Origin: Thioclava dalianensis
GTDB taxonomy: Bacteria; Pseudomonadota; Alphaproteobacteria; Rhodobacterales; Rhodobacteraceae
NCBI RefSeq assembly: GCF_000715505.1
Contig: NZ_JHEH01000008.1
Location: 1-64,000 of the forward strand
Reading direction: 5' to 3'
Length of the DNA: 64,000 bases
The position numbers and the translations under genes were made by a program. This document shows positions 3,253-31,203 of the stretch, one piece after another (the stretch's first letter is position 1; every line of letters begins with the position of its first letter). The notes under the pieces are model-generated. The model was not told the DNA's origin and did not search any database. It saw only the letters and a list, made by a program, of their open reading frames with translations.

Positions 3253-3601
3253 ATGGCAAGGAAGACGAAAGCCAACCGGAGAAAACGGCGAGAAATTCAG
3301 GCAACCGACGCTGAGTGGCAGGTGATCAAATCGGCGGCTGGCAAGGTGGGCGTGTCAACTTCCGAGTTTGTCCGCCGCTGCGCCTTTCGTCTGGATCTGT
3401 CAGATGGATCGACCAGGAAGGAAGATGCCGCGGTGCAGGTCCTTTCCTCCTTCGATCTGATTGAGAAAAGCTTGCGGGGTGATGGCGATGGAAGTGGTCT
3501 GGCAGGGAACGGTTTCTCCGAGTCATCTGCGCATGATTGCGACAATCGAAGCCAAGCTCGACCGGATGCATGGCGCACTGTTCGGAGAGGGTGAAAAATG
3601 A
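3253..3601 (+). pseudogene. mobC-like relaxosome accessory protein, frameshifted
   Basis: Small basic mobilization protein of the MobC/MbeC type. The N-terminus is Lys/Arg-rich (MARKTKANRRKRR), then comes a ribbon-helix-helix-like segment with GVSTSEFVRRCAF, as expected of an oriT-binding partner of a relaxase. The uninterrupted frame would end at 3594 (113 aa), but its last 35 or so residues look out of frame. Skipping one base in the GGGG run at 3476-3479 switches to a frame reading VSPSHLRMIATIEAKLDRM and ending GEGEK, with a stop that overlaps the relaxase start as ATGA. That gives a normal-length (115 aa) MobC. A real frameshift, a programmed slip and a sequencing error are all possible. 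GAGGAG before the ATG is a good ribosome site. Confidence 0.6.
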
Positions 3602-5268
3602 TCCTCGGCTGGACGCGTTTCAAGAACCAGAAGATGGCCGACTACGAGAAGATCGTGGACTACTTCGTTGCCGAAAAGGTTCCTAAACTGGTAAACGGGA
3701 AATACATTTCGGTGCGCAGATACCCCGCGCCGGAAGTTCTGTTGGGACGCCCGGCGCGTATCATTCGAACGATCGAGAACCTTGAGCAGCGGCACCGGTT
3801 AAGCGCCTTCACACTCACCTTCACCGAGGCGGATATCTCGATCCGCGACTTCAATGCCGGCGACTCTGAAGCGCGCGAGAAGGTGCATCGAATCCTCGAT
3901 CTCGCGCTCGCGGTCGCTTTTCCAGGTGTGCCGATTGAGAAGAGGCCCGCTATTCTTGTCTCGACCCACACTCACACGAGCAGGCTGGAGCTGAACTTCG
4001 CAATTCCGCGATGCGTGATCCGGCCTGATGGATCGGTTCGCGCTTTTAATCCAAGCCCACCTGGCAGGCGCGCGACCGAACTTTGGCGGGCCTTCGTCGA
4101 TACGATCAACATGAACTACGGGTTCGATGACCCGGGCGCTCTTGAACGGATGCGTCTGATCAAATTGCCGGACGCAGTTCTTAAGGAGATCGCAGAGGCA
4201 CGGAGGAACAATCAGTTGTCCCGTTTCGAGCCTCTGGCGGCGTTCGTGCAGGCTGCGGAGGTCCGTGCGGGTATTTTGCTCGCAAAGCCCGGCATTCCAA
4301 AGCGAGATGTTTTGCTCGAGGGCTTGCGCCCCTTGGCAGAACAACATGATTTGACTTTTGAGACCGCCACCGCTAACGGCACGACTTTCCGGTTCCGGAA
4401 TGGTGAAACTCAACGCAGCGTCACGATTCGTGGCCCCCTGATGACAGATCAGTTCGACCAACTTTTCCAGCGCTTTAACAGCAACGGACGAGAGCGGAAA
4501 ATCCAGCTGGCGAAGGCGCCTGACAAACTGGAAGAGCTTTGGCTGTCTGTTGCCCGAGAAATGCCAGCTCGCCACGGCTTCGAGGCGCCCGAGAAATTCT
4601 ATGAACTCTCCGAGTTTCTCGAGGCGATGCCAAGGCCTCGACCTACGGTTTTTCGCCGAAAGACGCATGGGCTGAGGCCGATTGTCGGTCTGCTCCATCG
4701 TCTCGTGACGCAGCAGCTGATGCGCGGGCTCGTCGCGCGTCTCGTCACCGCACTGCCCAAGAACATCTTTGCCGAACCCCGCAAAAAACTGGAGGCCCTG
4801 AATGCCCGATACGCAAAAAACCACAACCCGGAATCTGAGCAAGGACATCCTGGATCTGATCGAGTCCAACAAGCGGGTGGTGGAGTTGATCCCGTCTCTC
4901 CAAGCCCTCTTGGCCATCGAAAAAGACCGTGGGGTGGTCGAGCGACTGGACCAGATGATCGAGGATCTCGGCGCGATCTCGCAGCAGATCGCGAAAGCCG
5001 CGAGTGTGATGGGCGACGCGATCGAATCGTTTCAAAAGGACGCGCAGAAACGCGATGCGCGAGAGCAGGAAATCATCGATCTGATGGCGTTGGTTCACGA
5101 GCGCCTGAAACGCTCGAGTTGAATGAGCTGGACGAGAGGATCAAAGCGCTGCTTGCCCGCCTCGGGGTATCTCAGCGCGGTGGGGACGAACAGATCGAAG
5201 ACGCGCTCGAGCCGGCAGAGATCGTCGTGTCCGAGAAGAACGACGATATTCTCCCCGACGGGCCGTGA
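3598..5268 (+). CDS. relaxase, MbeA-like (His-Glu-Asn signature)
   Basis: DNA-nicking relaxase expected to cut one strand at oriT and stay covalently bound to it. Near residue 124 the sequence HTHTSRLELNFAIPR replaces the usual three-histidine motif: His124, Glu131 and Asn133 have the spacing (7 and 9) of the HEN motif of ColE1 MbeA. Candidate nucleophiles are Tyr16 and Tyr22 (VDYF). Residues 1 to about 405 look like real protein in this frame. From about 405 to 505 the translation is Arg/Gly-rich and low in hydrophobic residues, because another gene (4802-5122) is encoded in the +1 frame over it. The last 50 residues (ELDERIKALLARLGV) look like protein again. They could instead be a separate product started at TTG 5119, whose codon overlaps the nested gene's stop. 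The start overlaps the end of mobC. Confidence 0.75.
   Translation: MILGWTRFKNQKMADYEKIVDYFVAEKVPKLVNGKYISVRRYPAPEVLLGRPARIIRTIENLEQRHRLSAFTLTFTEADISIRDFNAGDSEAREKVHRILDLALAVAFPGVPIEKRPAILVSTHTHTSRLELNFAIPRCVIRPDGSVRAFNPSPPGRRATELWRAFVDTINMNYGFDDPGALERMRLIKLPDAVLKEIAEARRNNQLSRFEPLAAFVQAAEVRAGILLAKPGIPKRDVLLEGLRPLAEQHDLTFETATANGTTFRFRNGETQRSVTIRGPLMTDQFDQLFQRFNSNGRERKIQLAKAPDKLEELWLSVAREMPARHGFEAPEKFYELSEFLEAMPRPRPTVFRRKTHGLRPIVGLLHRLVTQQLMRGLVARLVTALPKNIFAEPRKKLEALNARYAKNHNPESEQGHPGSDRVQQAGGGVDPVSPSPLGHRKRPWGGRATGPDDRGSRRDLAADRESRECDGRRDRIVSKGRAETRCARAGNHRSDGVGSRAPETLELNELDERIKALLARLGVSQRGGDEQIEDALEPAEIVVSEKNDDILPDGP
4802..5122 (+). CDS. helical protein nested within the relaxase gene (MbeB/MbeD-like position)
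   Basis: A 106-residue, ATG-started frame lying wholly inside the relaxase frame in the +1 register. Its codons show the GC-rich third positions typical of this genome, and its translation is a plausible amphipathic, possibly coiled-coil protein (SKDILDLIESNKRVVELI, then DQMIEDLGAISQQIAKAA). The relaxase frame over the same bases looks like the constrained, shadow-like one. In ColE1, accessory mobilization genes are likewise nested out of frame in the 3' part of mbeA, so this may be a mobilization accessory protein. That is inference from position; I recognise no domain. Confidence 0.65.
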   Translation: MPDTQKTTTRNLSKDILDLIESNKRVVELIPSLQALLAIEKDRGVVERLDQMIEDLGAISQQIAKAASVMGDAIESFQKDAQKRDAREQEIIDLMALVHERLKRSS

Positions 5269-14037: not shown

Positions 14038-15168
14038 TCAGAAGCTCATGCCCACGCGCAGGCCCGCGCCCCAGCCCTTGTTGCCCGAGAAATCGGCCAG
14101 CGTGGGGGCGTTGGTCGTGGCATCGCCGATATCGACATAGCGCAGACCGCCAGTGATCTTGATCTGGTCGGTTGCCTGATAGCTGGCCGCCAGCGAGATC
14201 GACTTGAAACCATCGGTCGGCCCGAGGTTGCCCACGGTGTCGCCGTCATGCTTTTCATAGCCGAACATCACAGCGCCCGACCATTGGTCGGTGAAGCGGC
14301 GACCCACACCGATATTGAAGGTCGTGGTGTTGTTCTTGAACGCCACGAGTGCGCCAGCGCTGCCCGGCTGACCGCCGCCCAGCGTCGCCCGGTAGCCATC
14401 CGGCGCGATCTCGAATTGCGACCAGTGCACCCAGCGGACCGAGCCCAGCAGGAGCGTGTCTTTTGCGATCCCGGTCTGGAATTCGAGGTTGACCGATTCC
14501 GGCGAGACGGTTTCGAAGGTCGAGTCGATCGTCGCGCCGTTGAACAGCGTTTCCGTACCGTCGAAATCATGCGTGATCTTCGAGTTATAGGTCAGCGCGA
14601 CACGGGCTGCGATCTCGGGTTTTTCCCAAGCGACACCCACCACATAGCCGAAATCTGTCTCGTTCGGAGCGTCGAGTTTATAGGGAAGGTAGGCGCCGGC
14701 TGTGGTTGAGAACACCTTCAGATCGGCCTTGCCGGAGGCTTGCTGGATGCGCACACCGCCATAGACCGAGATGTTCTGCGGGAACTTGTAGCGCATCAGG
14801 CCGGTCACCGCATGCGACGAGATTGACGCGGTCGAGCCTGCGAACGGGTAGGGCTGGTTGGCCAGCGGATAGTGCACATTTGCGCCCAGCGGCTGGTCGA
14901 GAATGATCGCAAGGTCGATATTGTCGTTCAGCGCCTGCTTGTAGCCAAGGCTGAAGCTGCCGTAGCCGGTCGCCATATCGCCCGACGAAATTGCGCCGCC
15001 TGCGACGGTGCCCGAGACATCTGGGTTGAAGCCGCCGATGTTGAATTCAGCGTAATTGCCTTGCTCGAACAGAATGCCGACCGATTGCGTCGAACGTTCG
15101 ACGCCGCCTGCCTGCGCCATGCCGGTGCTCAAAGCGACGACGGCTGCTGTTGTCAAAATCTGTTTCAT
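14038..15168 (-). CDS. FadL/TodX-like outer-membrane transport protein
   Basis: A 376-residue outer-membrane protein. The signal peptide is MKQILTTAAVVALSTGMAQA. The mature start GGVERSTQSVGILFEQGNYAEF matches the plug region of FadL-type barrels, and the chain ends in VGMSF with the terminal Phe typical of barrels. FadL proteins admit long-chain fatty acids or hydrophobic compounds across the outer membrane. It is shorter than E. coli FadL (about 420 mature), as often seen in alphaproteobacteria. GGAGAGG precedes the ATG. It is transcribed alone. Confidence 0.85.
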   Translation of the reverse strand: MKQILTTAAVVALSTGMAQAGGVERSTQSVGILFEQGNYAEFNIGGFNPDVSGTVAGGAISSGDMATGYGSFSLGYKQALNDNIDLAIILDQPLGANVHYPLANQPYPFAGSTASISSHAVTGLMRYKFPQNISVYGGVRIQQASGKADLKVFSTTAGAYLPYKLDAPNETDFGYVVGVAWEKPEIAARVALTYNSKITHDFDGTETLFNGATIDSTFETVSPESVNLEFQTGIAKDTLLLGSVRWVHWSQFEIAPDGYRATLGGGQPGSAGALVAFKNNTTTFNIGVGRRFTDQWSGAVMFGYEKHDGDTVGNLGPTDGFKSISLAASYQATDQIKITGGLRYVDIGDATTNAPTLADFSGNKGWGAGLRVGMSF

Positions 15169-19232: not shown

Positions 19233-20531
19233 CTACATCATGCCGGGCAACCAGAGCGAGATCTGCGGCACCGCGACCAGAATTGCGAGCGTTGCGAACA
19301 TCGCCACCCAGAACGGCATGACGCCTCGGAAAATCTCGATCAAGGGCACGTCCTTGGCCACGGATTTCACGATGAAGACGTTGATGCCGACGGGGGGAGA
19401 GATCAGCCCCATCTCGAGCGTGAGCACGACCAGCACGCCAAACCAGATCGGATCGATGCCGAGATCGAGGATCACCGGCAAAAAGATCGGCAGCGTCAGT
19501 ACCAGCATGGCCAGACCTTCGAGGAAACACCCCAGCACCATGTAGATCACGAGGATCACAAGCAGCGTGCCGATCCGGCCAAGATCGAGCGCCACGAGCA
19601 TCTGGCTGATTTCGGCGGGCAGGTGGCTGAGCGCCACGAACGGGTTGATCAGATGCGCCGCGATCAGGATCAGCATGACCGAGGCTGTGGTGACGATACT
19701 GTCTTGCGCGGCGCGCCAGAAGCTTCGCAGGGTCAAGCTGCGCTCACATGCCCCGTAGATAATGACGAAGGCCGCGCCAACCCCGGCGGCCTCGGTGGGC
19801 GAGAAAAACCCCGAATAGATGCCGCCAATGGTGAGCACGATGACGATGAGAATCGGGATTGCGCCGAGGAAGGCGCGACCCTTTTCGGCGGCGCTCGTAG
19901 CCGGGCCTTTCGGTCCGATCTCGGCGCGCAGGGTGCACAGGATCATGATCGTCAGGATGAAGGCGCTCAGCAGCAATATCCCCGGCAAGATGCCCGCCAT
20001 GAAGAGCCGCCCGATGCTTTGCTGCGTCAGGATTGCGTAGATGACAAAGCCGGTTGAGGGCGGGATCAGGATCCCCAGCGTCCCGCCCGCGGCCACAACC
20101 CCGGTCGACAGGCGCGGGCTATAGGCGTAGCGGTCCATCTCGGCCAGCGCGGTGCGCCCCATCGTCAGTGCCGAGGCGACCGAGGAACCCGAGAGGGCTG
20201 CAAACCCGCCGCAGCCCACCACGGTTGCCAGCGCAAGCCCGCCGCGCATCTGACCGATCGTCGCGAAAGCCGCATCATAGAGCTTGCGGCTCATCCCGGT
20301 GACGCTCGCCACATTGCCCATCAGGATGAACAGCGGCACCACGATCAATTCGGAATTCGAGGCCAGTGAGAAGGTCTCGGAGGCCAAAAGCCCGGTGGCC
20401 GCCTGTAGCCCGTTCAGAATCCAGATCCCGACAAAGCCCACTGCGAACATCGCAAAGGCCACAGGCACCCGGATCAGCAGCAAAGCCAGCAGCAGCGTCA
20501 GGCCAGCCGAGCCCACGATTGCAGGGGTCAT
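19233..20531 (-). CDS. dctM: TRAP transporter large permease (DctM)
   Basis: A 432-residue integral membrane subunit with about 12 helices that drives Na-coupled uptake of organic acids with DctP and DctQ. Typical text includes the N-terminal LLLALLLIRVPVAFAMF and the conserved SGSSVASALTMG and PPSTGFVIYA motifs. The start overlaps dctQ by 4 bases. It is the last gene of the P450/TRAP operon. Confidence 0.95.
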   Translation of the reverse strand: MTPAIVGSAGLTLLLALLLIRVPVAFAMFAVGFVGIWILNGLQAATGLLASETFSLASNSELIVVPLFILMGNVASVTGMSRKLYDAAFATIGQMRGGLALATVVGCGGFAALSGSSVASALTMGRTALAEMDRYAYSPRLSTGVVAAGGTLGILIPPSTGFVIYAILTQQSIGRLFMAGILPGILLLSAFILTIMILCTLRAEIGPKGPATSAAEKGRAFLGAIPILIVIVLTIGGIYSGFFSPTEAAGVGAAFVIIYGACERSLTLRSFWRAAQDSIVTTASVMLILIAAHLINPFVALSHLPAEISQMLVALDLGRIGTLLVILVIYMVLGCFLEGLAMLVLTLPIFLPVILDLGIDPIWFGVLVVLTLEMGLISPPVGINVFIVKSVAKDVPLIEIFRGVMPFWVAMFATLAILVAVPQISLWLPGMM

Positions 20532-21043
20532 AGCGGCTCCTTTTCGCCGGTCGGCTGAGGGTCATCGCGCCAGATTAGCCGCAATGCGCGCAGGCCCATC
20601 GTGAGCGCGCCGACCAGCGAGAGCACGCAAAGCGCGTATTGGAACCACGCATTGGGCAGGTTCAAGAGATTGGTCGAGAGATGGAGCATCACGCTCAGCT
20701 TTGCGCTTTGATAGACCGTAACCGCGATCAGCACGAAGATCGCCACGCCCAGCAGCGCCGAGAAAATGTCGATGGTGCGGTTGAGCGCTGCGGGAAACGT
20801 GGTTTCGAAGATATCGACGACGATATGGCCGCCCCTGCGGTCGCACAGCGCCATTCCGCCAAAGACGATCAGCACCATCGTCATGGTGACCAGATCCTGC
20901 GCGCCGTAAAGCGGCATGCCGAAATTGCGCCCGATCACATCGATCACGATCACCAGCACGACGAAGATCAACCCGCTCGTGCCGATGATCGCGGACAGGC
21001 TGATCAGCCTGTCCACAAGCTTTTGCATCTGTGCGAGCATCAC
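20528..21043 (-). CDS. dctQ: TRAP transporter small permease (DctQ)
   Basis: A 171-residue four-helix membrane subunit. The first helix is at about 15-40 (LSAIIGTSGLIFVVLVIVID), followed by the family hallmark of a Gly/Asn-rich loop (GRNFGMPLYGAQDLV). It overlaps dctP and dctM by 4 bases on each side, so the three are translationally coupled. It bridges the large permease and is needed for its stability in known systems. Confidence 0.93.
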   Translation of the reverse strand: MMLAQMQKLVDRLISLSAIIGTSGLIFVVLVIVIDVIGRNFGMPLYGAQDLVTMTMVLIVFGGMALCDRRGGHIVVDIFETTFPAALNRTIDIFSALLGVAIFVLIAVTVYQSAKLSVMLHLSTNLLNLPNAWFQYALCVLSLVGALTMGLRALRLIWRDDPQPTGEKEPL

Positions 21044-22020
21044 TCGCCCCGCATCGCCGCCAGTGTGGCCGCGCCGCCCACCTTGCTCACATAGGTGTCG
21101 GTCACATCGGCCAGCGCGTCATTGAAGGGTTGCGCGCCCGCAGCGTCCAGATCGATCACCGTGGTGCTGTCTGAGGCCCGTGCCGCATCGAGCGCCGCCG
21201 CTGCGGTCGCGATCCATGCCTCTTCGGTCATCTTCGAGATCTTCTCGCCCTTCACCGCATCGAGCGCCGCCTTGGCCTTGGGCGGCAGCCCGTCATAGGC
21301 GGGCTTGTTCATCACCGTATAGAAGGTGAGGCGGCCAAGGTTCGGTCCTGTCGTGACGCTGCCCACGACCTCGTTGAGCTTGAAATCCGACAGGATCGAC
21401 GCGCCGCTGACCACGCCGTCGATCAAACCGGTTTGCAGTCCGTTATAGACCTGTGTCATCGGGATCTGCACCGGGGTTGCGCCGAGCGCCTCCATCGCGG
21501 CAGCCGAGATCGAGCCTGCCACGCGGATCTTGAGCCCCTTGAGATCGGCAGGCGTGCGCACCTCTTTGTCGTGCATCATCAGGATGTTGGGCTCTGAGCC
21601 CCATAGCGCGATCACTTCGGTCTGCGGGTATTCGCCCTTGATCTGATCAAAGCCCTGCCAGAGCGCCTTGTAGCCCGGTGCATCCAGCGGCAGGGCGCCG
21701 GGCAGCTCGGCGATCAGGGTCTTGGGGAATTGCGACGAGGTGTATCCCTGAACGCCCCAGCCCATATCGGCTGTGCCTTGCAGCACGCGCACATATTGAT
21801 CCGCCGGGCCTGCGCCCAGCTCGCCGCCGTGATAGCCGCGCAGCGTGACGGCCCCGTCCGTGCCCTCAGAAAGCGCTTTGGCCAGCGGCTCTATCTGGGC
21901 TGCGTTGATTGTATGGGTGGGCGGCGCCCAGTTTGCGTATTTCAGCTCCTGTGCGCTGGCGCTGCTCAGGGTTGCGCCAAGCGCGATCACTGTCGCGATG
22001 CTCAAACTCGTGTGTTTCAT
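21040..22020 (-). CDS. dctP: TRAP transporter periplasmic substrate-binding protein (DctP)
   Basis: A periplasmic receptor of 326 residues. The signal peptide ends near SSASA (residue 23). The mature domain has the DctP-type strand LKGLKIRVAGSISAAAMEAL, whose conserved Arg normally contacts the ligand carboxylate. That fits an acidic ligand, but the compound is not identified. The ATG at 22020 is preferred over the in-frame Met 5 codons earlier, because the signal peptide begins there. It lies 66 bp downstream of the reductase gene in the same operon. Confidence 0.92.
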   Translation of the reverse strand: MKHTSLSIATVIALGATLSSASAQELKYANWAPPTHTINAAQIEPLAKALSEGTDGAVTLRGYHGGELGAGPADQYVRVLQGTADMGWGVQGYTSSQFPKTLIAELPGALPLDAPGYKALWQGFDQIKGEYPQTEVIALWGSEPNILMMHDKEVRTPADLKGLKIRVAGSISAAAMEALGATPVQIPMTQVYNGLQTGLIDGVVSGASILSDFKLNEVVGSVTTGPNLGRLTFYTVMNKPAYDGLPPKAKAALDAVKGEKISKMTEEAWIATAAAALDAARASDSTTVIDLDAAGAQPFNDALADVTDTYVSKVGGAATLAAMRGE

Positions 22021-22086
22021 GGTCTCTCCTCCCAATGGACCGTTAAACCCCTCATGTGAGGGCCTTTAGATACTCCCATGCAGCCC

Positions 22087-23262
22087 TCAGGCCGCTATCT
22101 CCTCCAGTTCTGCGCGCGTGATCGGCACGGGCGATGCGATGAGCTTACGCGCCCGCATATGGGCGCGCGCGTTGTCGAGCGTCTCGATGGCGGAAAGCCC
22201 GCTTGCGTCGAACCGCCCGATAATCCCTGCGGCGATCTCCTCCTCCGCCGCATCGGGAGTGGCAAAGCCCGCGATCTGCAACTTGCAGGGGCCTTGATCC
22301 GACCAGAACCAGGGCTGCGCGCTGTAAGGCGCGGCGTCGCCTTTGGCGATCCGCTTGGCGATGAGGCGCGCGTGGTCGGTCGCGGCCTGTACGCTTTCGA
22401 GCCGGATCTGCGCGCCGCTGCGGGGATCGGGAAAGCTCGCGCAATCGCCCAAGGCCGAAATCGCCGGGTCCGAAGTCAAAAGCCGCGCATCGGTCCGAAC
22501 GCCGTTGTCGCAGGCAAGCCCCGCCGCCTCGGCCAGCTCGGTATTGGGACGCACGCCCGCCGCGAGCAGCACGAAATCGGATGCGATCTTCGTGCCATCG
22601 GCCAGCGTCACGCCCGAGGGCTCCACCGCGATGGCGGCTTGGCCCAGATGCAGGCGGTTGCCCCAGTCGCGGTGCAGCTCCGCGAAATGCGCCGACATCT
22701 TGGCCGAGACCGCACGTGCCATCAGACGCGGTGCGGCCTCGATGATCGCGACCTCATGGCCGAGCGCGCGGGCCACGGCTGCGAATTCCAAGCCAATGAA
22801 GCCGCCGCCGATCACCGCGATCCGAGTCGGCTGCGAAAGCCTGTCGCGCAGGGTCTGAGCGTCGCGCAACGTGCGCAGATCGCAGGCCAGCCCGATCCCT
22901 TCGATCGGGGGGCGCAGATTGCGCGTGCCGGTCGCGAGGACGAGATGGTCATAGGGCAGGGCATGCGCGCCGCTCTGCCCGGTCACGGTGACGCGCTGGG
23001 CGGTGCGATCAATCGCCTCCACCCACGTGTCGGGCCGGTAGTCGATCTGCTTGGCGTCGAAGAAGCTCTCGGGGCGGAGATACAGCGCCTCGGCCTTGCC
23101 GTCGCGAAGATAGGCCTTGGAGAGCGGCGGGCGCTGATAGGGCAGGCCGGGCTCACCGCCGATCAGCGTGATTGTCCCGGCAAAGCCGCTCTGGCGCAGG
23201 CTGATCGCCGCTTGCAGCCCGCCCTGTCCGGCACCGATGATGAGGACGGTCTCAGGGGTCAA
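22087..23262 (-). CDS. NAD(P)H-dependent ferredoxin reductase (FAD), P450 partner
   Basis: A 391-residue putidaredoxin-reductase-like flavoprotein that would pass electrons from NAD(P)H to the ferredoxin encoded next to it. The FAD Rossmann motif GAGQGG lies near the N-terminus, ATGTRNL marks the FAD domain, the NAD fold is IGGGFIGLE near residue 150, and a second FAD motif is in ALGDCA. The start overlaps the ferredoxin gene by 4 bases. With the P450 it makes a three-component (class I) system. Confidence 0.93.
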   Translation of the reverse strand: MTPETVLIIGAGQGGLQAAISLRQSGFAGTITLIGGEPGLPYQRPPLSKAYLRDGKAEALYLRPESFFDAKQIDYRPDTWVEAIDRTAQRVTVTGQSGAHALPYDHLVLATGTRNLRPPIEGIGLACDLRTLRDAQTLRDRLSQPTRIAVIGGGFIGLEFAAVARALGHEVAIIEAAPRLMARAVSAKMSAHFAELHRDWGNRLHLGQAAIAVEPSGVTLADGTKIASDFVLLAAGVRPNTELAEAAGLACDNGVRTDARLLTSDPAISALGDCASFPDPRSGAQIRLESVQAATDHARLIAKRIAKGDAAPYSAQPWFWSDQGPCKLQIAGFATPDAAEEEIAAGIIGRFDASGLSAIETLDNARAHMRARKLIASPVPITRAELEEIAA

Positions 23263-23582
23263 AACTGTTCCTCGGGCAGATGGACCACGAGCCCGTCGAG
23301 ATCAGAGGTCAGCTTGATCTGGCATGACAAGCGCGAGCGCTCGGTGACCTCGGAGGCAGCCCCGTCCAGCATATCCTCTTCGCTCCTGTCGCGCGTCCCG
23401 ACCCGATCGGCCCATGCCGCATCGACATAGCAATGACAGGTCGCGCACATCATCGCGCCGCCGCATTCGCCCACGATCCCGTCCACATCCTGCGAGACCG
23501 CCGCATGCATCACGGTGTCGCCCTCATCGGCGTCAATGTCGGTCTGCGAGCCGTCATGGGCGATATAGGTCACCTTCACCAT
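23259..23582 (-). CDS. [2Fe-2S] ferredoxin, putidaredoxin type
   Basis: A 107-residue adrenodoxin/putidaredoxin-like carrier. Cluster ligands are visible as CGGAMMCATC (C-x5-C-x2-C) plus the later Cys in RLSCQIK. It would shuttle single electrons from the reductase to the P450. It lies 40 bp downstream of the P450 gene and overlaps the reductase gene. Confidence 0.95.
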   Translation of the reverse strand: MVKVTYIAHDGSQTDIDADEGDTVMHAAVSQDVDGIVGECGGAMMCATCHCYVDAAWADRVGTRDRSEEDMLDGAASEVTERSRLSCQIKLTSDLDGLVVHLPEEQF

Positions 23583-23622
23583 TGAAATTCCTCCTCCTTC
23601 ATGTCCGATCCGCGCGGGCGGG

Positions 23623-24798
23623 TCAGTTCAGTGTCACCGGCAGGTTGATCGGCCCGCGAAACCCAAAGCCGCGCCACAGAACCTGCGAGGGGTCGGGCAG
23701 GCGCATATCGGGGAAACGGTCGAACAGCAGCGGCAGGATGATCTTGCCCACGGTGCGCCGCGCGATATGGGCGCCTGCGCAGTGATGGGGGCCATTGCCG
23801 AAAGCCTGATGGGGGTTCTTGTCGCGAAAGACGATATAGTCCTCGCCATTCTCATAAAGGCTCTCGTCGCGATTGGCGGAGGCCTGGATCGTCATCACGG
23901 TGTCGCCCTTGGGGATCTCGAAGCCGCCCAGCTCGGTATCTTCGGTGACGAGCCGCGAGCTGGCCTGGATCGGGGCCACCCAGCGCACGCCCTCTTCAAA
24001 AGCCTTGCCCCAAGCCTCTTGAGCGCGCACCTGCGCCAGTTGATCGGGATTGGTCAGCAGGCCGTAGAGGATCGTTGCCAGCGCATCGCGCGGCTCGTTG
24101 ATCCCGCCGCCGATCGCGATCTTGATATTGGCCCAGATCTGGCTCATCGGGATCGGATCTTCGGCTGTGAGCATCACCGAATAGGCCGAGCCGTCGGGCT
24201 GAGCGATGCGCTTCTCGCGCAGCTCAGCAAAAAGCGCGTCCATCTCGTCATTGGCCTTGTCCGAGATCGCGAACGGCTCGGGCTTCCAGCCGAAATTTCC
24301 CGCCCCGTCGATCAGGTGCTGCGACCAGCGCTGCATCTCGGCATCGCTGGCCTCGGGGATGCCCAGCACATTGGCGAGGATCCGGGCGGCCAGCGGGCCG
24401 CAGAGATCGGTGAACAGATCGACCGTCTCGCCGCGCGGCAGCCGCCCGACATACTCCTCTGCCAGCTCTTGATAGAGCGGCCCCCAATCCGTGTTGATTT
24501 TCTTCGGCGTGAGTGCGGGCATCATCGCCTTGCGCTCGCGCATATGTTCCTCGCCATCCTTGCGCATCAGGGTATGGGCGCGAAAGGCGGGCTTCATCGG
24601 CGTGTTGGGATCGTTGCTGCTGAACAGATCGGGGGCGTCCTTGACCTGCTTGGTCAGCTCGGCCGTGGTCAGAAAGGTGCGCTGGGCAGAGGCGACCCGC
24701 AAGACCGGGCTTTGGGCGCGCAATCTGCGATAGATCGGGTAGGGATCCGTCGTCAGTTGCGCAAGCGTAATTGTATCGTCAAGCGGTGCGAGCGCCAT
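23623..24798 (-). CDS. cytochrome P450 with atypical I-helix
   Basis: A 391-residue bacterial soluble P450 (monooxygenase). The heme ligand is Cys340 in FGNGPHHCAG, and the K-helix ExxR is in FEEGVRW. The I-helix reads IGGGINEPRDAL where most P450s have (A/G)Gx(D/E)T, so both the acid (Asn) and the alcohol (Glu) of the proton-relay pair are changed. Alternatives to the Thr exist in known families (P450cin has Asn), so it may still be active, possibly with unusual oxygen activation. It is the first gene of a probable six-gene operon with ferredoxin, reductase and a TRAP importer, divergent from a LysR regulator. The substrate is unknown, perhaps an imported carboxylate. Confidence 0.93.
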   Translation of the reverse strand: MALAPLDDTITLAQLTTDPYPIYRRLRAQSPVLRVASAQRTFLTTAELTKQVKDAPDLFSSNDPNTPMKPAFRAHTLMRKDGEEHMRERKAMMPALTPKKINTDWGPLYQELAEEYVGRLPRGETVDLFTDLCGPLAARILANVLGIPEASDAEMQRWSQHLIDGAGNFGWKPEPFAISDKANDEMDALFAELREKRIAQPDGSAYSVMLTAEDPIPMSQIWANIKIAIGGGINEPRDALATILYGLLTNPDQLAQVRAQEAWGKAFEEGVRWVAPIQASSRLVTEDTELGGFEIPKGDTVMTIQASANRDESLYENGEDYIVFRDKNPHQAFGNGPHHCAGAHIARRTVGKIILPLLFDRFPDMRLPDPSQVLWRGFGFRGPINLPVTLN

Positions 24799-24878: not shown

Positions 24879-24895
24879 CATCAAATAATTTGATG
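24879..24895. promoter_or_regulatory. 17-bp perfect palindrome, probable LysR operator
   Basis: CATCAAATAATTTGATG is a perfect palindrome around one central base, 9 bp before the LysR start and 80 bp before the P450 start. It lies in the AT-rich stretch of the divergent promoter region. A palindrome here fits autoregulation and activation of the P450 operon. Confidence 0.6.
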
Positions 24896-24903
24896 GGATT
24901 GCC

Positions 24904-25803
24904 ATGTCTCAAACACCCTCGCCAAGCGGCAGGATCGATATCGCCGCGCTCGAGACATTGCGGCTCGTGCATGCTTTGGGCTCTTTCACGGCGGCGGCCG
25001 AAAAGCTCGACGTCAACCAATCGGCGGTAAGCTACACAATCGCGAAACTGCGCAGCTATTTTCAGGATCCGCTCTTTGTGCGCGAGGGCGGGCAACAGGT
25101 TGCGACCGAGCGCTGCGAGCATATCCTTCAACAGGTCACCGAGATCTTACAAAAGCTTGACGATGTCGCGCAGCCGGAAAAATTCGATCCCGCGCAATCG
25201 CGCTCCAAGGTCACCATCGCCTGCAATTACTACGAGCGGATCCTGATGATCCCCAAGATTGTCTCGGAGTTGCGCCGTCAGGCGCCGGGGCTTGAGGTGG
25301 AGGTGGTGAACGCGCTGGGAGACGGGCATTTGCGGCTGTTGCGCCGCGAGGCCGATGTGTTGATCGGACCGTTTGCGCGCAGCCAATCGGGCTTTCACTC
25401 GCGCCGTCTTTATACCGAGCACTATGCCTGTTTCATGGATCCCGGCCACCCGATGGCGGGCCGAGCGCTGGATGTCGAGCGCTATCTCCAGCTCAACCAT
25501 CTCTATATCAATTACGGCGGGAGCTGGAAATCGGCCTATGTGACCGAGCTTGAAGCGGCAGGCCACACATTGCGGCCAACGATCGCCGTGCCAAGCCCTG
25601 CAGGTCTCGCCTCGCTTCTCTCGGGCTCCAATCTCGTGGCGACGATGCCCATTCGGCTGGGCAAGACGATGGATGGGCTTGTGCTCAATCCCTGTCCGTT
25701 TCAGGGGCATTTTGACCTGTCTGTCGTCTGGACCGCGCATAAGAACGCCTCGGCGGTCCATCGCTGGCTGCGCGAGGTCATCGTCGAGACCTGTCGCGGA
25801 TAG
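24904..25803 (+). CDS. LysR family transcriptional regulator
   Basis: A 299-residue regulator. The winged helix-turn-helix is at about 20-70 (ALGSFTAAAEKLDVNQSAVSYTIAKL), and an effector-binding domain starts near SKVTIACNYYERILMIPKI. The residues resemble the NodD/LinR-like subgroup seen with aromatic or phenolic inducers, but this is only a resemblance. It is divergent from the P450 operon, which is the likely target, and the 17-bp palindrome sits in its own leader. Confidence 0.9.
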   Translation: MSQTPSPSGRIDIAALETLRLVHALGSFTAAAEKLDVNQSAVSYTIAKLRSYFQDPLFVREGGQQVATERCEHILQQVTEILQKLDDVAQPEKFDPAQSRSKVTIACNYYERILMIPKIVSELRRQAPGLEVEVVNALGDGHLRLLRREADVLIGPFARSQSGFHSRRLYTEHYACFMDPGHPMAGRALDVERYLQLNHLYINYGGSWKSAYVTELEAAGHTLRPTIAVPSPAGLASLLSGSNLVATMPIRLGKTMDGLVLNPCPFQGHFDLSVVWTAHKNASAVHRWLREVIVETCRG

Positions 25804-25924: not shown

Positions 25925-26689
25925 GTGACCCGACCCAGCCGCCAGCAAGAGCGGATCACCCAAATCACCGCGATGCTCGATGTTTCGCCTGCCTTGCGGC
26001 TGCGCGATCTTGCCGCACAGATGGGGGTCACCGAGATGACGCTGCGGCGCGATGCGGCGCAGGCGGGCGGGCGATTTGCCTGCCGGGGCGGCTATCTCGT
26101 CGCGAGCCGCACCACGGAGTATTACGATTTCGACGCGCAGATGACGCGCGCGATCGAGGCCAAGCGCGCGGCGGCACAGATCGCGCAGGATCTTGTGCCC
26201 GATCAGGCGGTGGTGTTTCTCGATGCCGGCACCACGCTGCCTCATCTCGCGCGGCTGCTGGCACAGGGCGGGGTGCGGCGCATCATCACTCATTGCTTCA
26301 CCACCGCTGAGGTCTTGCAGGGCCGCGCCAATGTGCCGGTGGAGTTTCTGGGCGGTGAGATCAAGTTGACGACCCGCTCCTGCCACGCCGAAAACCCGCA
26401 GGAGCGCCTTGCCGATCTTGGAATCGATGTGGCGTTTCTCTCGGCGGGCGGGATCGATGCGGCGGGCGTGATCAGCTGCTCATATCCTTACGAGGCCGCG
26501 CTCAAACAGGCCGCGATTGCGAGCTCGGCCCAGAGCTATGTCGTGCTGGATGACAGCAAGCTCGGCACGCGCAAACCGGTGCCCTTCGCCACGCTGGACG
26601 CGGTCGATGGTGTGGTGAGCGAAACCGGCCTGTGGAGCGGGGCGCAGATGAGAAATCGGTTGACACAGCTGTCGCCGCGCGAGATGTAG
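25925..26689 (+). CDS. deoR: DeoR family transcriptional repressor
   Basis: A 254-residue regulator of sugar catabolism. The helix-turn-helix begins RLRDLAAQMGVTEMTLRRD. The sugar-phosphate-binding domain carries LDAGTTLPHLA (a phosphate-sensing loop) and the later LSAGGID and LDDSKLG motifs. The GTG at 25925 is chosen because GGAGG lies 8 bases before it; the open frame extends far upstream without a match to the family. It sits ahead of a kinase, deoC and aldehyde dehydrogenase set, so it probably senses a deoxyribose phosphate. Confidence 0.85.
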   Translation: MTRPSRQQERITQITAMLDVSPALRLRDLAAQMGVTEMTLRRDAAQAGGRFACRGGYLVASRTTEYYDFDAQMTRAIEAKRAAAQIAQDLVPDQAVVFLDAGTTLPHLARLLAQGGVRRIITHCFTTAEVLQGRANVPVEFLGGEIKLTTRSCHAENPQERLADLGIDVAFLSAGGIDAAGVISCSYPYEAALKQAAIASSAQSYVVLDDSKLGTRKPVPFATLDAVDGVVSETGLWSGAQMRNRLTQLSPREM

Positions 26690-26695
26690 GGCGAG

Positions 26696-26717
26696 TAATG
26701 TTAGGATTGAAACATTA
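26696..26717. promoter_or_regulatory. inverted repeat, candidate DeoR operator
   Basis: TAATGTT at 26696-26702 and AACATTA at 26711-26717 are perfect 7-bp arms around an 8-base spacer. They lie between the repressor gene and the kinase gene, in an AT-rich stretch within GC-rich DNA. This is the expected place for the operator of the catabolic genes. Confidence 0.55.
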
Positions 26718-26792
26718 TGATCAAGCGCGCGGGTTGCGATGAACCGAGATGCGCGCCGACCGCGATGTTTCTTGAGATGACGGAGAGCGAAC

Positions 26793-27725
26793 ATGTCTGA
26801 CACAATCGCCGTGGTTGGCTCGAACATGATGGATCTGGTCACCTATATCGAGCGGATGCCCGCACGCGGCGAAACGCTTGCCGCGCCCGATTTCGCGATG
26901 GGATTTGGCGGCAAGGGGGCCAATCAGGCGGTTGCCGCGGCGCGGCTGGGATCAAAGGTCGCGATGGTGACTTGCGTCGGTGATGATGGTTTTGGGGCGC
27001 AGGTGCGCGCCAATCTTGAGAGCAACGGGATCGACACGACCCATGTGCGCACGGTCGAGGGCAGCGCCTCGGGCGTTGCTCCGATCTTTGTCGAGCCCGA
27101 TGGCGAGAACGCGATCCTGATCGTGAAGGGCGCCAATGCGGCGTTGGCACCGTCCGATGTGGATGGGGCCGCAGAGATGCTGCGCGGGGCCTCGGCGATC
27201 TTGCTTCAGCTCGAGGTCGATCTGGCCACCGTCTATCACGCGGTCGCATTCGGGGCGCGCGAGGGCATCACCACGATCCTCAACCCCGCGCCGGCGCATC
27301 GTGATCTCGATATCGCGCAGCTCGACGGGCTCGACTGGTTTTGCCCCAATGAGAGCGAGCTGGCACTGCTGACCGGGCTGCCCACCGACACCGAGGCGGA
27401 CGTTACCGCCGCCGCGCGTCACCTGATCGCGCGCGGCATTCGCAATGTGGTGGTCACTTTGGGCGGGCGTGGCGCGCGGCGCATCACTGCCGATCATGTC
27501 GAGGAGATCGCGCCGGTCGCCGTGACCCCGGTCGATACCACCGGGGCGGGCGATGCGTTCATCGGCGCCTTCGCCCATTATCTTGGGGCCGGGCACGCCC
27601 CGACGGAGGCGCTGACCCGTGCTGCCCGCTATGCCGCGCTGTCGATCACCCGCAGGGGGACGCAGACCAGCTACGCAACCGCGCCGGAATTTGCAGAGTT
27701 TCTGTCCGAGCACGCGCTCGATTGA
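26793..27725 (+). CDS. rbsK: PfkB-family sugar kinase (ribokinase or deoxyribokinase)
   Basis: A 310-residue kinase that would phosphorylate ribose or 2-deoxyribose at C5. Family marks are NMMDL and GGKGANQAVAAARLG at the N-terminus and DTTGAGDAFIGAF with the catalytic Asp. No transporter gene is adjacent. Because deoC and an aldehyde dehydrogenase follow, deoxyribose is a better guess than ribose (as in the deoK systems of enterobacteria), but sequence alone cannot settle it. There is an 88-bp gap to deoC. Confidence 0.85.
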   Translation: MSDTIAVVGSNMMDLVTYIERMPARGETLAAPDFAMGFGGKGANQAVAAARLGSKVAMVTCVGDDGFGAQVRANLESNGIDTTHVRTVEGSASGVAPIFVEPDGENAILIVKGANAALAPSDVDGAAEMLRGASAILLQLEVDLATVYHAVAFGAREGITTILNPAPAHRDLDIAQLDGLDWFCPNESELALLTGLPTDTEADVTAAARHLIARGIRNVVVTLGGRGARRITADHVEEIAPVAVTPVDTTGAGDAFIGAFAHYLGAGHAPTEALTRAARYAALSITRRGTQTSYATAPEFAEFLSEHALD

Positions 27726-27813
27726 GACTGTTTGAGCGCCGGATCGGGGCGGCATCGGGACATAGCGCCCGACACGCTCCCCGAGGCCCGCGCGCCGACC
27801 AAGGAGATAGGCG

Positions 27814-28830
27814 ATGAAGACGCAGACCGATGTTCAGACTTCCGAAGGCGCGCTTGTGCCCACAGCCGCAGGTCACGCGGAGGCCGGGCGCAATCCCGGC
27901 ATGTCGCTTGATGTGGCGATGTTCGAAGGCCACCGGGTGAACCGGTCCGCCGCCGAGCGCCGCTGTGCGACGCTGACGTCCCGGCGCAGCGTGAAGAAGG
28001 CGCATCAGGCGGCGTGGCTGGTCAACGCGGTGCGCTGCGTCGATCTGACGACGCTTGCGGGCGATGATACGGGCGCGCGGGTGCAGCGGCTCTGCGCCAA
28101 GGCGCGCCAGCCGATCGCGCCGCATATCGTGCAAGGTCTGGGGCTCGACCCGGAGGGGCTTCGGGTCGGCGCGGTCTGCGTCTATCCCACGATGGTGCCG
28201 CATGCCGTGCGCGCGCTGGAGGGCACTGGGATTCCCGTGGCCTCGGTCGCGACGGGCTTTCCGGCCGGTCTGATGCCGCTGCATCTGCGCCTAGAGGAGA
28301 TCCGCTGGGCGGTGGCCCAAGGCGCGGGCGAGATCGATATCGTGATCAGCCGCGAGCTGGCGCTGACGCATAACTGGCAGGGCTTGCATGACGAGATCGC
28401 CGCGATGCGCGAGGCCTGTGGCGAGGCCCATATGAAGGCGATCCTTGCGACCGGAGAGCTGGAAACGCTCAACACGGTCTATGCGGCCTCGATGGTTGCG
28501 ATGCAGGCGGGGGCGGATTTCATCAAGACCTCGACCGGCAAGGAAAGCGTCAATGCCACGCTCCCCGTGAGCCTTACGATGCTGCGGGCGCTGCGCGATT
28601 ACGGCATGAGCACGGGGCACCGGATCGGCTTCAAGCCCGCAGGCGGGATGAAGCAGGCCAAAGAGGCGCTCGCCTGGCAGATCCTGATGAAAGAAGAATT
28701 AGGCCGCGACTGGCTCAATCCCGATCTGTTCCGCTTTGGCGCAAGCTCGATGCTGGGCGATATCGAACGCCAGCTCGAACATTACGTGACCGGGCGCTAC
28801 GCCGATTCCAGCCGCCATGCGCTTGCCTGA
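27814..28830 (+). CDS. deoC: 2-deoxyribose-5-phosphate aldolase
   Basis: Splits deoxyribose 5-phosphate into acetaldehyde and glyceraldehyde 3-phosphate through a Schiff base. At 338 residues it belongs to the long DeoC class. The Schiff-base Lys is in ADFIKTSTGKES (the first Lys of that stretch). The proton-relay Lys is in GFKPAGGM, and the phosphate loop follows. AAGGAG precedes the ATG. The aldehyde dehydrogenase gene starts 12 bp later, which would remove the acetaldehyde. Confidence 0.94.
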   Translation: MKTQTDVQTSEGALVPTAAGHAEAGRNPGMSLDVAMFEGHRVNRSAAERRCATLTSRRSVKKAHQAAWLVNAVRCVDLTTLAGDDTGARVQRLCAKARQPIAPHIVQGLGLDPEGLRVGAVCVYPTMVPHAVRALEGTGIPVASVATGFPAGLMPLHLRLEEIRWAVAQGAGEIDIVISRELALTHNWQGLHDEIAAMREACGEAHMKAILATGELETLNTVYAASMVAMQAGADFIKTSTGKESVNATLPVSLTMLRALRDYGMSTGHRIGFKPAGGMKQAKEALAWQILMKEELGRDWLNPDLFRFGASSMLGDIERQLEHYVTGRYADSSRHALA

Positions 28831-28842
28831 GGAGAGACCAAA

Positions 28843-31203
28843 ATGAGCATTCAGACGATCCTCGAGACGATGGAGTACGGCGTGGCCCCTGAAGATGACA
28901 GCCACGCACGCGCTTGGCTTGACGCGCATAAGGATGGCTTTGGTCATTTCATCAATGGCGAGATGACGCGCCCCGCGCATCTGTTCGAAGTGCGCGACCC
29001 GGCTCGTGACACAGTTCTGGCCCGTGTCAGCCAAGGCCAGACGGCCGATGTGGATGCCGCCGTTGCCGCCGCGCGCAAGGCCCAGCCCGATTGGGCGAAG
29101 CTGTCAGGCCATCAGCGCGCCAAGCATCTTTACGCGTTGGCCCGTCATGTGCAGCAACATGCCCGCCTCTTGGCGGTGTTGGAAACGCTCGATAGCGGCA
29201 AGCCGATCCGCGAGAGCCGCGATATCGACATTCCGCTGGTCGCGCGCCATTTCTACCATCATGCGGGCTGGGCCGAGATCTTGGAGGATGAACTGCCCGG
29301 GCAGGGCCCGCAGGGCGTCTGCGGTCAGATCATTCCGTGGAACTTTCCCCTTCTGATGCTGGCGTGGAAAGTGGCCCCGGCGCTGGCGGCGGGCAATACG
29401 GTCGTGCTCAAACCCGCCGAATACACGCCGCTCACCGCGCTGGCTTTCGCCGAGATCGCGGCTGAATGCGGCCTGCCCAAGGGCGTGCTCAATATCGTCA
29501 CCGGCGATGGCGAGACGGGAGGCGCGATTGTCGGCCATGAGGGCATCGACAAGCTGGCCTTTACCGGCTCGACCGAGGTCGGGCGGCTGATCCGCGAGCG
29601 CACCGCTGGCTCGGGCAAGGCTCTGACCCTTGAGCTGGGCGGCAAATCGCCCTTCATCGTCTTTGACGATGCCGATCTTGATGCGGCGGTCGAAGGTGTG
29701 GTCGATGCGATCTGGTTCAATCAGGGGCAGGTCTGTTGTGCGGGCTCGCGCATTCTGGTGGCCGAATCCGTGGCCGCGCGCTTCGAGACGCTGCTGCGCG
29801 CCCGGATGACGACCCTGCGCACCGGCGATCCGATGGACAAAAGCACCGATATTGGCGCGATCGTGCACCCTTCGCAGCTTGCGCGGATCCGCGACCTTGT
29901 GGCGCGCGGGGCGGCGCAGGGGGCAACGCTGCATCAGGGCGAGGCGCCGCAGGGCTGTTTCTTCCCGCCGACTTTGGCCACCGATGTCGCGCCCGCAAGC
30001 ATCCTGTCCACCGAGGAGATCTTCGGCCCCGTGGTGACGCTCACCACTTTCCGCACGCCCTCCGATGCGGTGGCGCTGGCCAATAACACCCGCTACGGGC
30101 TGGCCGCGAGCCTCTGGTCGGAAAACATCAACCTATGCCTCGATATCGGGGCACAGGTGAAGGCCGGGATTGTCTGGATCAACTGCACCAATATCTTCGA
30201 TGCGGGTGCGGGCTTTGGCGGCTATCGCGAAAGCGGGTTTGGTCGCGAAGGCGGGCGTGAGGGGATGCGGGCCTATCTGCGCCCCTCAGATGCTGCATCG
30301 GGCAAGGCCAAGGGCTCGGAGCCCGCAGAGCTGCAGACCGGTCCCGCTCCCCAGATCAAGGGCGCCGAGATCGACCGCACGGCCAAGCTCTATATCGGTG
30401 GCAAACAGGCGCGGCCCGATAGCGGCTACAGCTATCAGGTGCGCGGCGGCAAGGCGGTCGTGGGGCTTGCCGGTCTGGGCAATCGCAAGGATATCCGCAA
30501 CGCGGTGGAGACTGCCTCCAAGGCCGGGGGCTGGGGCCGTGCGACGGGGCATAACCGCGCGCAGGTGCTCTATTACATCGGCGAGAACCTCTCTGCGCGT
30601 GCCGCCGAATTTGCCACCCGGCTCGAGAGTTTCGGCGCGGGTCGCAAATCGGCGCAGGCCGAGGTCGATACCGCGATCGCGCGGTGCTTCTGGTATGCCG
30701 CCCAGGCCGATAAGTTCGACGGCGCGGTCCATGCCACCAAGTCCGATTTCGTGACGCTGGCAATGAACGAGCCGCTTGGCGTGATGGGGCTGGTAGCGCC
30801 GAGCGCGCATCCGCTGCTCGGGGCGATCTCGCTGGTGCTGCCCGCGATTGCGATGGGCAACCGGGTGGTGCTGGTGCCCAGCCAGGCCCATCCGCTGGCC
30901 GCGACCGATCTCTATCAGGTGTTTGACACCTCCGATCTGCCGGGCGGGGTGGTCAATATCGTGACCGGGCCGCGCGATGAGCTGGCCAAGGTGTTGGCCG
31001 CGCATGATGGTGTCGATGCAATGTGGTATTTCGGCAGTGCCGCAGGCGGGCAGATGGTCGACCGCGAAAGCGCGGGCAATCTCAAGCAGACTTGGACCGA
31101 ATGCGACGATGCGCGCGATTGGAGCGCGAAACCCGGTCAGGGGCGGCTGTTCCTCGAACGCGCCACGCAGGTCAAGAACATCTGGGTGCCCTACGGCGCG
31201 TAA
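28843..31203 (+). CDS. aldehyde dehydrogenase, double-domain ALDH16-like
   Basis: A 786-residue protein with two ALDH-fold segments. The first (about 40-480) is complete: NAD site and WNFPLLMLAWK, the Glu in TLELGGKSPF, the catalytic Cys in GQVCCAGSR and EEIFGPVV. The second (about 500-786) has LGVMGLVAPSAHPLLGA and VVNIVTGPR but no catalytic Cys, so it looks structural. This matches ALDH16, studied structurally in a Loktanella (Rhodobacteraceae) enzyme. In this operon it would oxidise acetaldehyde released by DeoC, or another aldehyde of the pathway. Confidence 0.9.
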   Translation: MSIQTILETMEYGVAPEDDSHARAWLDAHKDGFGHFINGEMTRPAHLFEVRDPARDTVLARVSQGQTADVDAAVAAARKAQPDWAKLSGHQRAKHLYALARHVQQHARLLAVLETLDSGKPIRESRDIDIPLVARHFYHHAGWAEILEDELPGQGPQGVCGQIIPWNFPLLMLAWKVAPALAAGNTVVLKPAEYTPLTALAFAEIAAECGLPKGVLNIVTGDGETGGAIVGHEGIDKLAFTGSTEVGRLIRERTAGSGKALTLELGGKSPFIVFDDADLDAAVEGVVDAIWFNQGQVCCAGSRILVAESVAARFETLLRARMTTLRTGDPMDKSTDIGAIVHPSQLARIRDLVARGAAQGATLHQGEAPQGCFFPPTLATDVAPASILSTEEIFGPVVTLTTFRTPSDAVALANNTRYGLAASLWSENINLCLDIGAQVKAGIVWINCTNIFDAGAGFGGYRESGFGREGGREGMRAYLRPSDAASGKAKGSEPAELQTGPAPQIKGAEIDRTAKLYIGGKQARPDSGYSYQVRGGKAVVGLAGLGNRKDIRNAVETASKAGGWGRATGHNRAQVLYYIGENLSARAAEFATRLESFGAGRKSAQAEVDTAIARCFWYAAQADKFDGAVHATKSDFVTLAMNEPLGVMGLVAPSAHPLLGAISLVLPAIAMGNRVVLVPSQAHPLAATDLYQVFDTSDLPGGVVNIVTGPRDELAKVLAAHDGVDAMWYFGSAAGGQMVDRESAGNLKQTWTECDDARDWSAKPGQGRLFLERATQVKNIWVPYGA

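Follow-up and report, generated by a model that had tools for sequence, protein, structure and literature searches.

A VirH2-type cytochrome P450 encoded with a TRAP importer in Thioclava dalianensis, a putative module for uptake and O-demethylation of methoxylated aromatic acids

Results

We analysed a 64,000-nucleotide stretch of the Thioclava dalianensis genome (contig NZ_JHEH01000008.1, positions 1 to 64,000; hereafter the window), which holds a candidate operon of six minus-strand genes at 19233-24798 encoding a cytochrome P450, a 2Fe-2S ferredoxin, a flavin adenine dinucleotide (FAD) reductase and the DctP, DctQ and DctM components of a tripartite ATP-independent periplasmic (TRAP) transporter. 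The coordinates and the Pfam families over cut-off (p450, Fer2, Pyr_redox_2 with Reductase_C, DctP, DctQ and DctM) bear out the six same-strand genes of a preliminary description, and the gene families support its class I P450 chain joined to a TRAP importer, with import followed by oxidation. The P450 (391 amino acids (aa), 23623-24798) is VirH2-type (CYP104-like) and, by alignment and by comparison of its structure model with the Protein Data Bank (PDB), a predicted aromatic O-demethylase. It is followed by the ferredoxin with a C-X5-C-X2-C ... C pattern (107 aa, 23259-23582), the FAD-dependent ferredoxin reductase with a TTG start (391 aa, 22087-23262), the solute-binding protein DctP (326 aa, 21040-22020), the small permease DctQ with a GTG start (171 aa, 20528-21043) and the large permease DctM, which also scores over the cut-off of TIGR00786 (432 aa, 19233-20531). 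The dctP, dctQ and dctM genes stand together, as is defining for a TRAP (DctPQM) transporter. In the NCBIfam search the P450, ferredoxin and reductase had no match over cut-off, the reductase's nearest models, HcaD and AndAa, both staying below theirs.

Adjacent genes had been said to overlap by 4 bases, which holds at three of the five junctions (ferredoxin/reductase 23259-23262, DctP/DctQ 21040-21043 and DctQ/DctM 20528-20531) but not between P450 and ferredoxin, which are 40 bp apart, or between reductase and DctP, separated by 66 bp (22021-22086). Folding of a 69-nt stretch gave a hairpin of -21.3 kcal/mol in the latter gap, but as its sequence shows no conservation we do not regard it as functional. 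In a weak consensus scan, promoter-like sites were absent from the operon's interior and terminator-like sites from its strand; the sole minus-strand promoter-like site, at 24912-24885 upstream of the P450 gene, was at chance level. The LysR regulator of the preliminary description is a real gene (299 aa, Pfam HTH_1 and LysR_substrate) but lies outside the six-gene stretch, divergently on the plus strand at 24904-25803, and it is kept beside the P450 gene in relatives. The 105-bp gap between the LysR and P450 genes contains the palindrome CATCAAATAATTTGATG (24879-24895), a T-N11-A sequence that is the window's sole match when up to 2 mismatches are allowed (0.01 expected). An aligned, imperfect block is present in all 15 intergenic regions compared, with only CATC and a few other columns invariant, and an exact degenerate pattern was matched in 7 of 93 loci, including the window's own copy. 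A divergent LysR gene with a T-N11-A palindrome is the arrangement of a LysR-regulated catabolic operon, and the regulator would presumably bind at this predicted box.

The P450 carries the heme-Cys loop FGNGPHHCAG, the ExxR motif and the I-helix GGGINEPRDA; the loop, ExxR and the separate 2Fe-2S ferredoxin and FAD reductase mark it as a class I bacterial P450. At the position where the I-helix usually has an acid-alcohol pair it has Glu-Pro, found likewise in GcoA by alignment to PDB entries, and all 37 of the aligned relatives share N-E-P-R-D, which 6g71 has as well. Identity to the P450s at the VirH2 position is 67.5% for pTiC58, where this is the second P450, and 67.8% for an octopine Ti plasmid. 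By the naming rule for P450s, identity above 40% marks a family and above 55% a subfamily, and the window P450 falls by identity within the VirH2 (CYP104) family, VirH2 (PinF2) being, as we assume, CYP104A1. Furthermore, in a midpoint-rooted tree of 54 rows it belongs to the VirH2 clade (46 rows, support 100/98), with VirH1 and other plasmid P450s outside. The best PDB matches of its predicted structure are CYP1232A24, GcoA and SyoA, which fill the top 20 rows; identity to GcoA and SyoA, presumably CYP255A enzymes, is 29-31% and below the family threshold. The close kinship of the window P450 with VirH2 and its nearest structural matches, which are aromatic O-demethylases, speak against the plain hydroxylation of aromatic or alicyclic acids proposed earlier. 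The likely reaction of the enzyme would be O-demethylation of methoxylated hydroxy-aromatic acids. VirH2 itself is reported as an O-demethylase turning ferulate into caffeate, and it is also credited with detoxification of phenolics (PMC4086400).

In line with the earlier suggestion to look for the same six-gene order in other genomes, we found it together with the divergently oriented LysR gene in a further 12 loci (L001-L008, L031, L038, L041 and L045) of a targeted set of 40 P450 loci (L001-L031 and L037-L045) biased to near relatives. One gene appears split or short in three of the 12 (P450 in L045, reductase in L008, DctP in L041); split readings in tblastn were seen for the P450 at L045:9001-10171 and L030:9001-10166 and for the reductase at L008:10546-11702. 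The P450-ferredoxin-reductase order is present in 27 of the 40. In a second sample, 248 genomes drawn evenly from the family, the P450 was found in 32 (E<=1e-100) and a close DctP homologue in 31 (E<=1e-90); G088/L003, G067/L020 and G246/L029 are probably genomes shared by both sets. Twenty control windows, hand-placed on long contigs, were taken from 18 of these genomes. A DctP-type gene lies no more than about 9 kb from the P450 in 23/32 loci versus 1/20 controls (Fisher p 1e-6); the window's DctP as sole query gives the same 23/32, with 13/32 within 800 bp. Another DctP type, 28-31% identical to the window's, accounts for 20 of these 23. A lone DctP-type binding protein follows the VirH2-like P450 in two loci that we opened (L119:10234-11262 and L125:7858-8964); the next genes encode an exonuclease and a SIS/CBS protein at L119 and acetolactate synthase at L125, and neither stretch yielded a DctM-like gene.

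Catabolic genes neighbour the P450 in 8 of the 40 targeted loci (including L009, L022, L024, L025, L029 and L030) and in 8/32 evenly sampled loci versus 0/20 controls (p 0.014). In Paracoccus aestuarii the whole operon is flanked on one side by pcaDCHG, pobA and an aldehyde dehydrogenase gene, and on the other by AMP-binding (split), enoyl-CoA-hydratase, MarR and amidohydrolase genes, of which the AMP-binding and hydratase proteins may make and split feruloyl- or caffeoyl-CoA. In P. liaowanqingii, pobA and an aldehyde dehydrogenase gene are found at the P450 locus. An Amidohydro_2 protein, perhaps an aromatic decarboxylase judging by its Pfam family, recurs near VirH2-like P450s (L041:17504-18379, L009, L022, L089, L107, L110, L116, L117 and L122), its copies being 69-83% identical to that of L041 and present in 6/32 evenly sampled loci versus 0/20 controls.

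Arg166 of DctP, which we take to be the arginine that holds the ligand carboxylate, is invariant in 12 of 12 aligned DctPs, in agreement with the carboxylate ligand predicted before; the best PDB matches of DctP are 7nr2, 5im2, 4n6d and 5i5p. Directly upstream of DctP, on the same strand and 89-262 bp away, 26 of the 31 genomes encode a LigM-type protein, passing the cut-off of NF047885, the model for the vanillate/3-O-methylgallate O-demethylase. The P450 cassette takes this place in two (the window's genome and G088); among the rest, G226 has the P450 10 kb upstream, and in two LigM or its below-cut-off kin is found elsewhere. Thus one importer family stands beside two unrelated O-demethylases, and this pairing is the strongest substrate clue found. 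The DctP tree, in which L076 and L081 have no rows (DctP reading frame not called) and L082 is marked 'x' despite its upstream LigM gene, places the P450-type DctPs in a single clade (99/96) among those of the LigM type. The LigM model gave no match in 10 relatives with P450 and TRAP genes, nor in the controls of that search, a negative that counts only because the same model matched 40 of the 248 genomes. In L071-L086 (e.g. L071:6357-12419) we observed a GntR(FCD)-LigM-DctPQM cluster, followed in L071 by a catechol 2,3-dioxygenase-like gene.

To our knowledge of the literature searched, which covered few subscription journals, no redox partners of VirH2 have been named. No match to the six other proteins, LysR included, was found in two vir stretches of 40-45 kb from Ti plasmids. 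The plasmid search returned 139 Agrobacterium records for the P450 (any P450 at E<=1e-5); with the ferredoxin as query, Agrobacterium stayed outside the ten most frequent names (9 records at tenth place), three A. vitis records being among the rows, and the one that we opened was plasmid pRv, where the ferredoxin has a P450 of another type beside it. The window's ferredoxin and reductase are candidate partners for VirH2-type enzymes, which would be something new. A close ferredoxin/reductase pair also accompanies another P450 type and an ABC transporter on plas2 of Alloyangia pacifica (L070:1022-9499), where an S-(hydroxymethyl)glutathione dehydrogenase gene is a sign of formaldehyde.

The window's own genome (99.99% complete, 4.18 Mb) encodes PcaH (68%), with a second intradiol-dioxygenase-like gene adjacent, among open reading frames that by eye resemble pca genes, as well as PobA (57%) and a class III alcohol dehydrogenase (73%). 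It contains no LigM at E<=1e-80 and no VanA_C, and no close homologue of the L041-type Fcs (best 27%) or Ech (best 36%), other Fcs/Ech families not having been sought.

Elsewhere in the window, an OMPP1/FadL/TodX-type outer-membrane protein (PF03349) is encoded at 14038-15168, on the operon's strand and about 4 kb from its end; it might carry hydrophobic compounds across the outer membrane. Beside the LysR gene, at 25928-31203 (plus strand), lies a deoxysugar-type cluster of DeoR regulator, PfkB kinase, DeoC aldolase and an aldehyde dehydrogenase of 786 aa with two matched stretches. An open reading frame of 556 aa at 3598-5268 (plus strand) has no Pfam match at E<=0.001.

Discussion

The preliminary description considered the substrate not predictable. 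The 67.5% identity to VirH2, the structural matches to O-demethylases and the LigM partner in 26 of 31 genomes make its class predictable. We propose that the locus is probably an inducible module for uptake and O-demethylation of methoxylated hydroxy-aromatic acids, a function read from sequence, with vanillate-type acids as the first choice and hydroxycinnamates such as ferulate as the second. The aromatic acid would act through LysR at the T-N11-A box between the divergent genes, DctP would capture it by its carboxylate and DctQM would import it. Electrons would pass from NADH through the reductase and the 2Fe-2S ferredoxin to the P450, which would oxidise the O-methyl group, with formaldehyde and a catechol-type acid, for example protocatechuate, as products. 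The formaldehyde may be handled by the class III alcohol dehydrogenase, whose gene lies at another place in the genome, and the protocatechuate may enter ring cleavage by the genome's protocatechuate dioxygenase route.

Several observations weigh against this proposal. The operon is not beside the pca genes in its own genome, and the DctP structure model has a predicted local distance difference test score of 36 and no usable pocket, so it contributes no binding-site evidence. Of the 10 relatives that combine the P450 with this TRAP transporter, 5 have VanA_C; the P450 is therefore not simply their only vanillate demethylase, and the idea that it replaces a missing VanA is weakened. Ferredoxin and reductase genes lie just downstream of the VirH2-like P450 in only 5/32 evenly sampled loci, and the six-gene form is a minority of 2/32. 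Only 12/32 loci (control 1/20) have both a binding protein and a large permease near the P450, and DctM alone is weakly enriched (13/32 vs 3/20, p 0.048). Given these 12 loci and the other DctP type in 20 of 23, the general association is between the P450 and a TRAP binding protein, and the window's complete transporter is one form of it. Moreover, in some relatives the partners of this P450 type are a second P450 and an ABC transporter, so substrates may vary.

The same module could serve hydroxycinnamates, DctP importing ferulate and the P450 making caffeate ahead of side-chain removal, a possibility that we regard as tentative. It agrees with the reported activity of VirH2 and with Fcs/Ech-like genes around the operon in L041 and near family members L009, L022, L025, L088, L089, L116 and L122. 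The TRAP protein TarP is reported to bind ferulate and caffeate with nanomolar Kd, whereas no binding was seen for 4-hydroxybenzoate (PMC3610893). Against it stand the transporter's main partner elsewhere, a vanillate/3-O-methylgallate demethylase, and the own genome, whose pcaH, pobA and lack of close L041-type Fcs/Ech homologues favour a methoxybenzoate over a hydroxycinnamate.

We consider it rather unlikely that the P450 removes a para-methyl group from anisate or veratrate, with PobA or the pca route completing the pathway. The own genome has pobA, and the gene lies near the P450 in L024, L029, L030, L041, L045, L089, L123, L124 and L129 (the last probably the L029 genome), but pca clusters commonly include pobA anyway; GcoA and SyoA act on guaiacyl/syringyl-type rings according to PDB entry titles, and LigM on vanillate-type rings. 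Somewhat more doubtful still is hydroxylation of an unrelated carboxylate, or a mainly detoxifying role. TRAP proteins bind many organic acids, and detoxification is ascribed to VirH2 as well, but the top structural matches are GcoA, SyoA and CYP1232A24, the last presumably acting on papaverine ethers, and the linked importer argues for nutrition rather than detoxification. That the P450 and TRAP parts are separately transcribed chance neighbours is highly improbable: the hairpin in the 66-bp gap and the rarity of the exact pairing in the even sample would suit it, but the 12 loci of the same order, the enrichment of DctP-type genes over controls and the lack of a terminator-like site in the scan oppose it.

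Compared with known systems, the window P450 resembles VirH2 of Ti plasmids in identity (67.5-70%), length, the invariant NEPRD I-helix and tree clade. The vir operon setting (virH1, virK, virA) is absent from the window, which carries LysR and TRAP genes in its place; in the plasmids opened, VirH2 follows another P450 upstream of virK/virA, and ferredoxin, reductase, TRAP and LysR homologues are missing from the two vir stretches. The actinobacterial GcoAB and SyoA are the nearest folds after CYP1232A24 (PDB 6g71), which is from Arthrobacter, and GcoA shares the I-helix Glu-Pro; the partner of GcoA, however, is one fused reductase, GcoB, whereas the window has separate ferredoxin and reductase, and we know of no importer for GcoAB or SyoA. 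The LigM loci share the DctPQM family (DctP 50-62%) and the predicted reaction, but encode an aminomethyltransferase-fold protein instead of a P450 and, in 8 of 11 fetched loci with a LigM reading frame called, an adjoining GntR/FCD-type regulator instead of LysR. LigM is tetrahydrofolate-dependent (PMC13406360). By description rather than sequence, TarPQM of Rhodopseudomonas palustris likewise imports lignin-derived aromatics as a TRAP system and is encoded in a catabolic cluster, for which no P450 is known to us.

In the literature searched we found no report of a P450 with vanillate O-demethylase in Rhodobacteraceae, and the part consulted of a review on P450, TRAP transporter, O-demethylation and ferredoxin describes no such operon; on vanillate, LigM and TRAP transporters together, the literature search led to this review and a phthalate paper. 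Searches for CYP1232A24 and CYP104A1 gave no relevant paper (plant triterpenes only for CYP104A1); the GcoA paper does not mention VirH, Agrobacterium or the I-helix, nor a bacterial P450 review CYP104, VirH or TRAP. The enzyme and transporter kinds are known; their combination was not found described in the literature searched.

One could speculate that the window represents the complete free-living VirH2 system, a P450 with ferredoxin, reductase, importer and LysR switch of its own, the Ti plasmid VirH2 being a stripped relative that uses redox partners encoded elsewhere, and that in this lineage an ancestral TRAP importer swapped its folate-type LigM for the P450 cassette, making two chemically unrelated demethylases interchangeable modules of a single uptake system; the DctP tree gives no direction for this exchange. 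VirH2 is a known phenolic O-demethylase; the operon provides its P450 family with candidate redox partners and a nutritional context. What is new is a VirH2-type P450 in its full catabolic context and the alternation of two unrelated demethylases beside one transporter, which leads to a testable substrate prediction for a DctP-kind transporter of the sort named for C4-dicarboxylates. For lignin conversion, the operon may offer a three-part O-demethylase as well, and it suggests a route by which Rhodobacterales may use lignin-derived vanillate-type acids.
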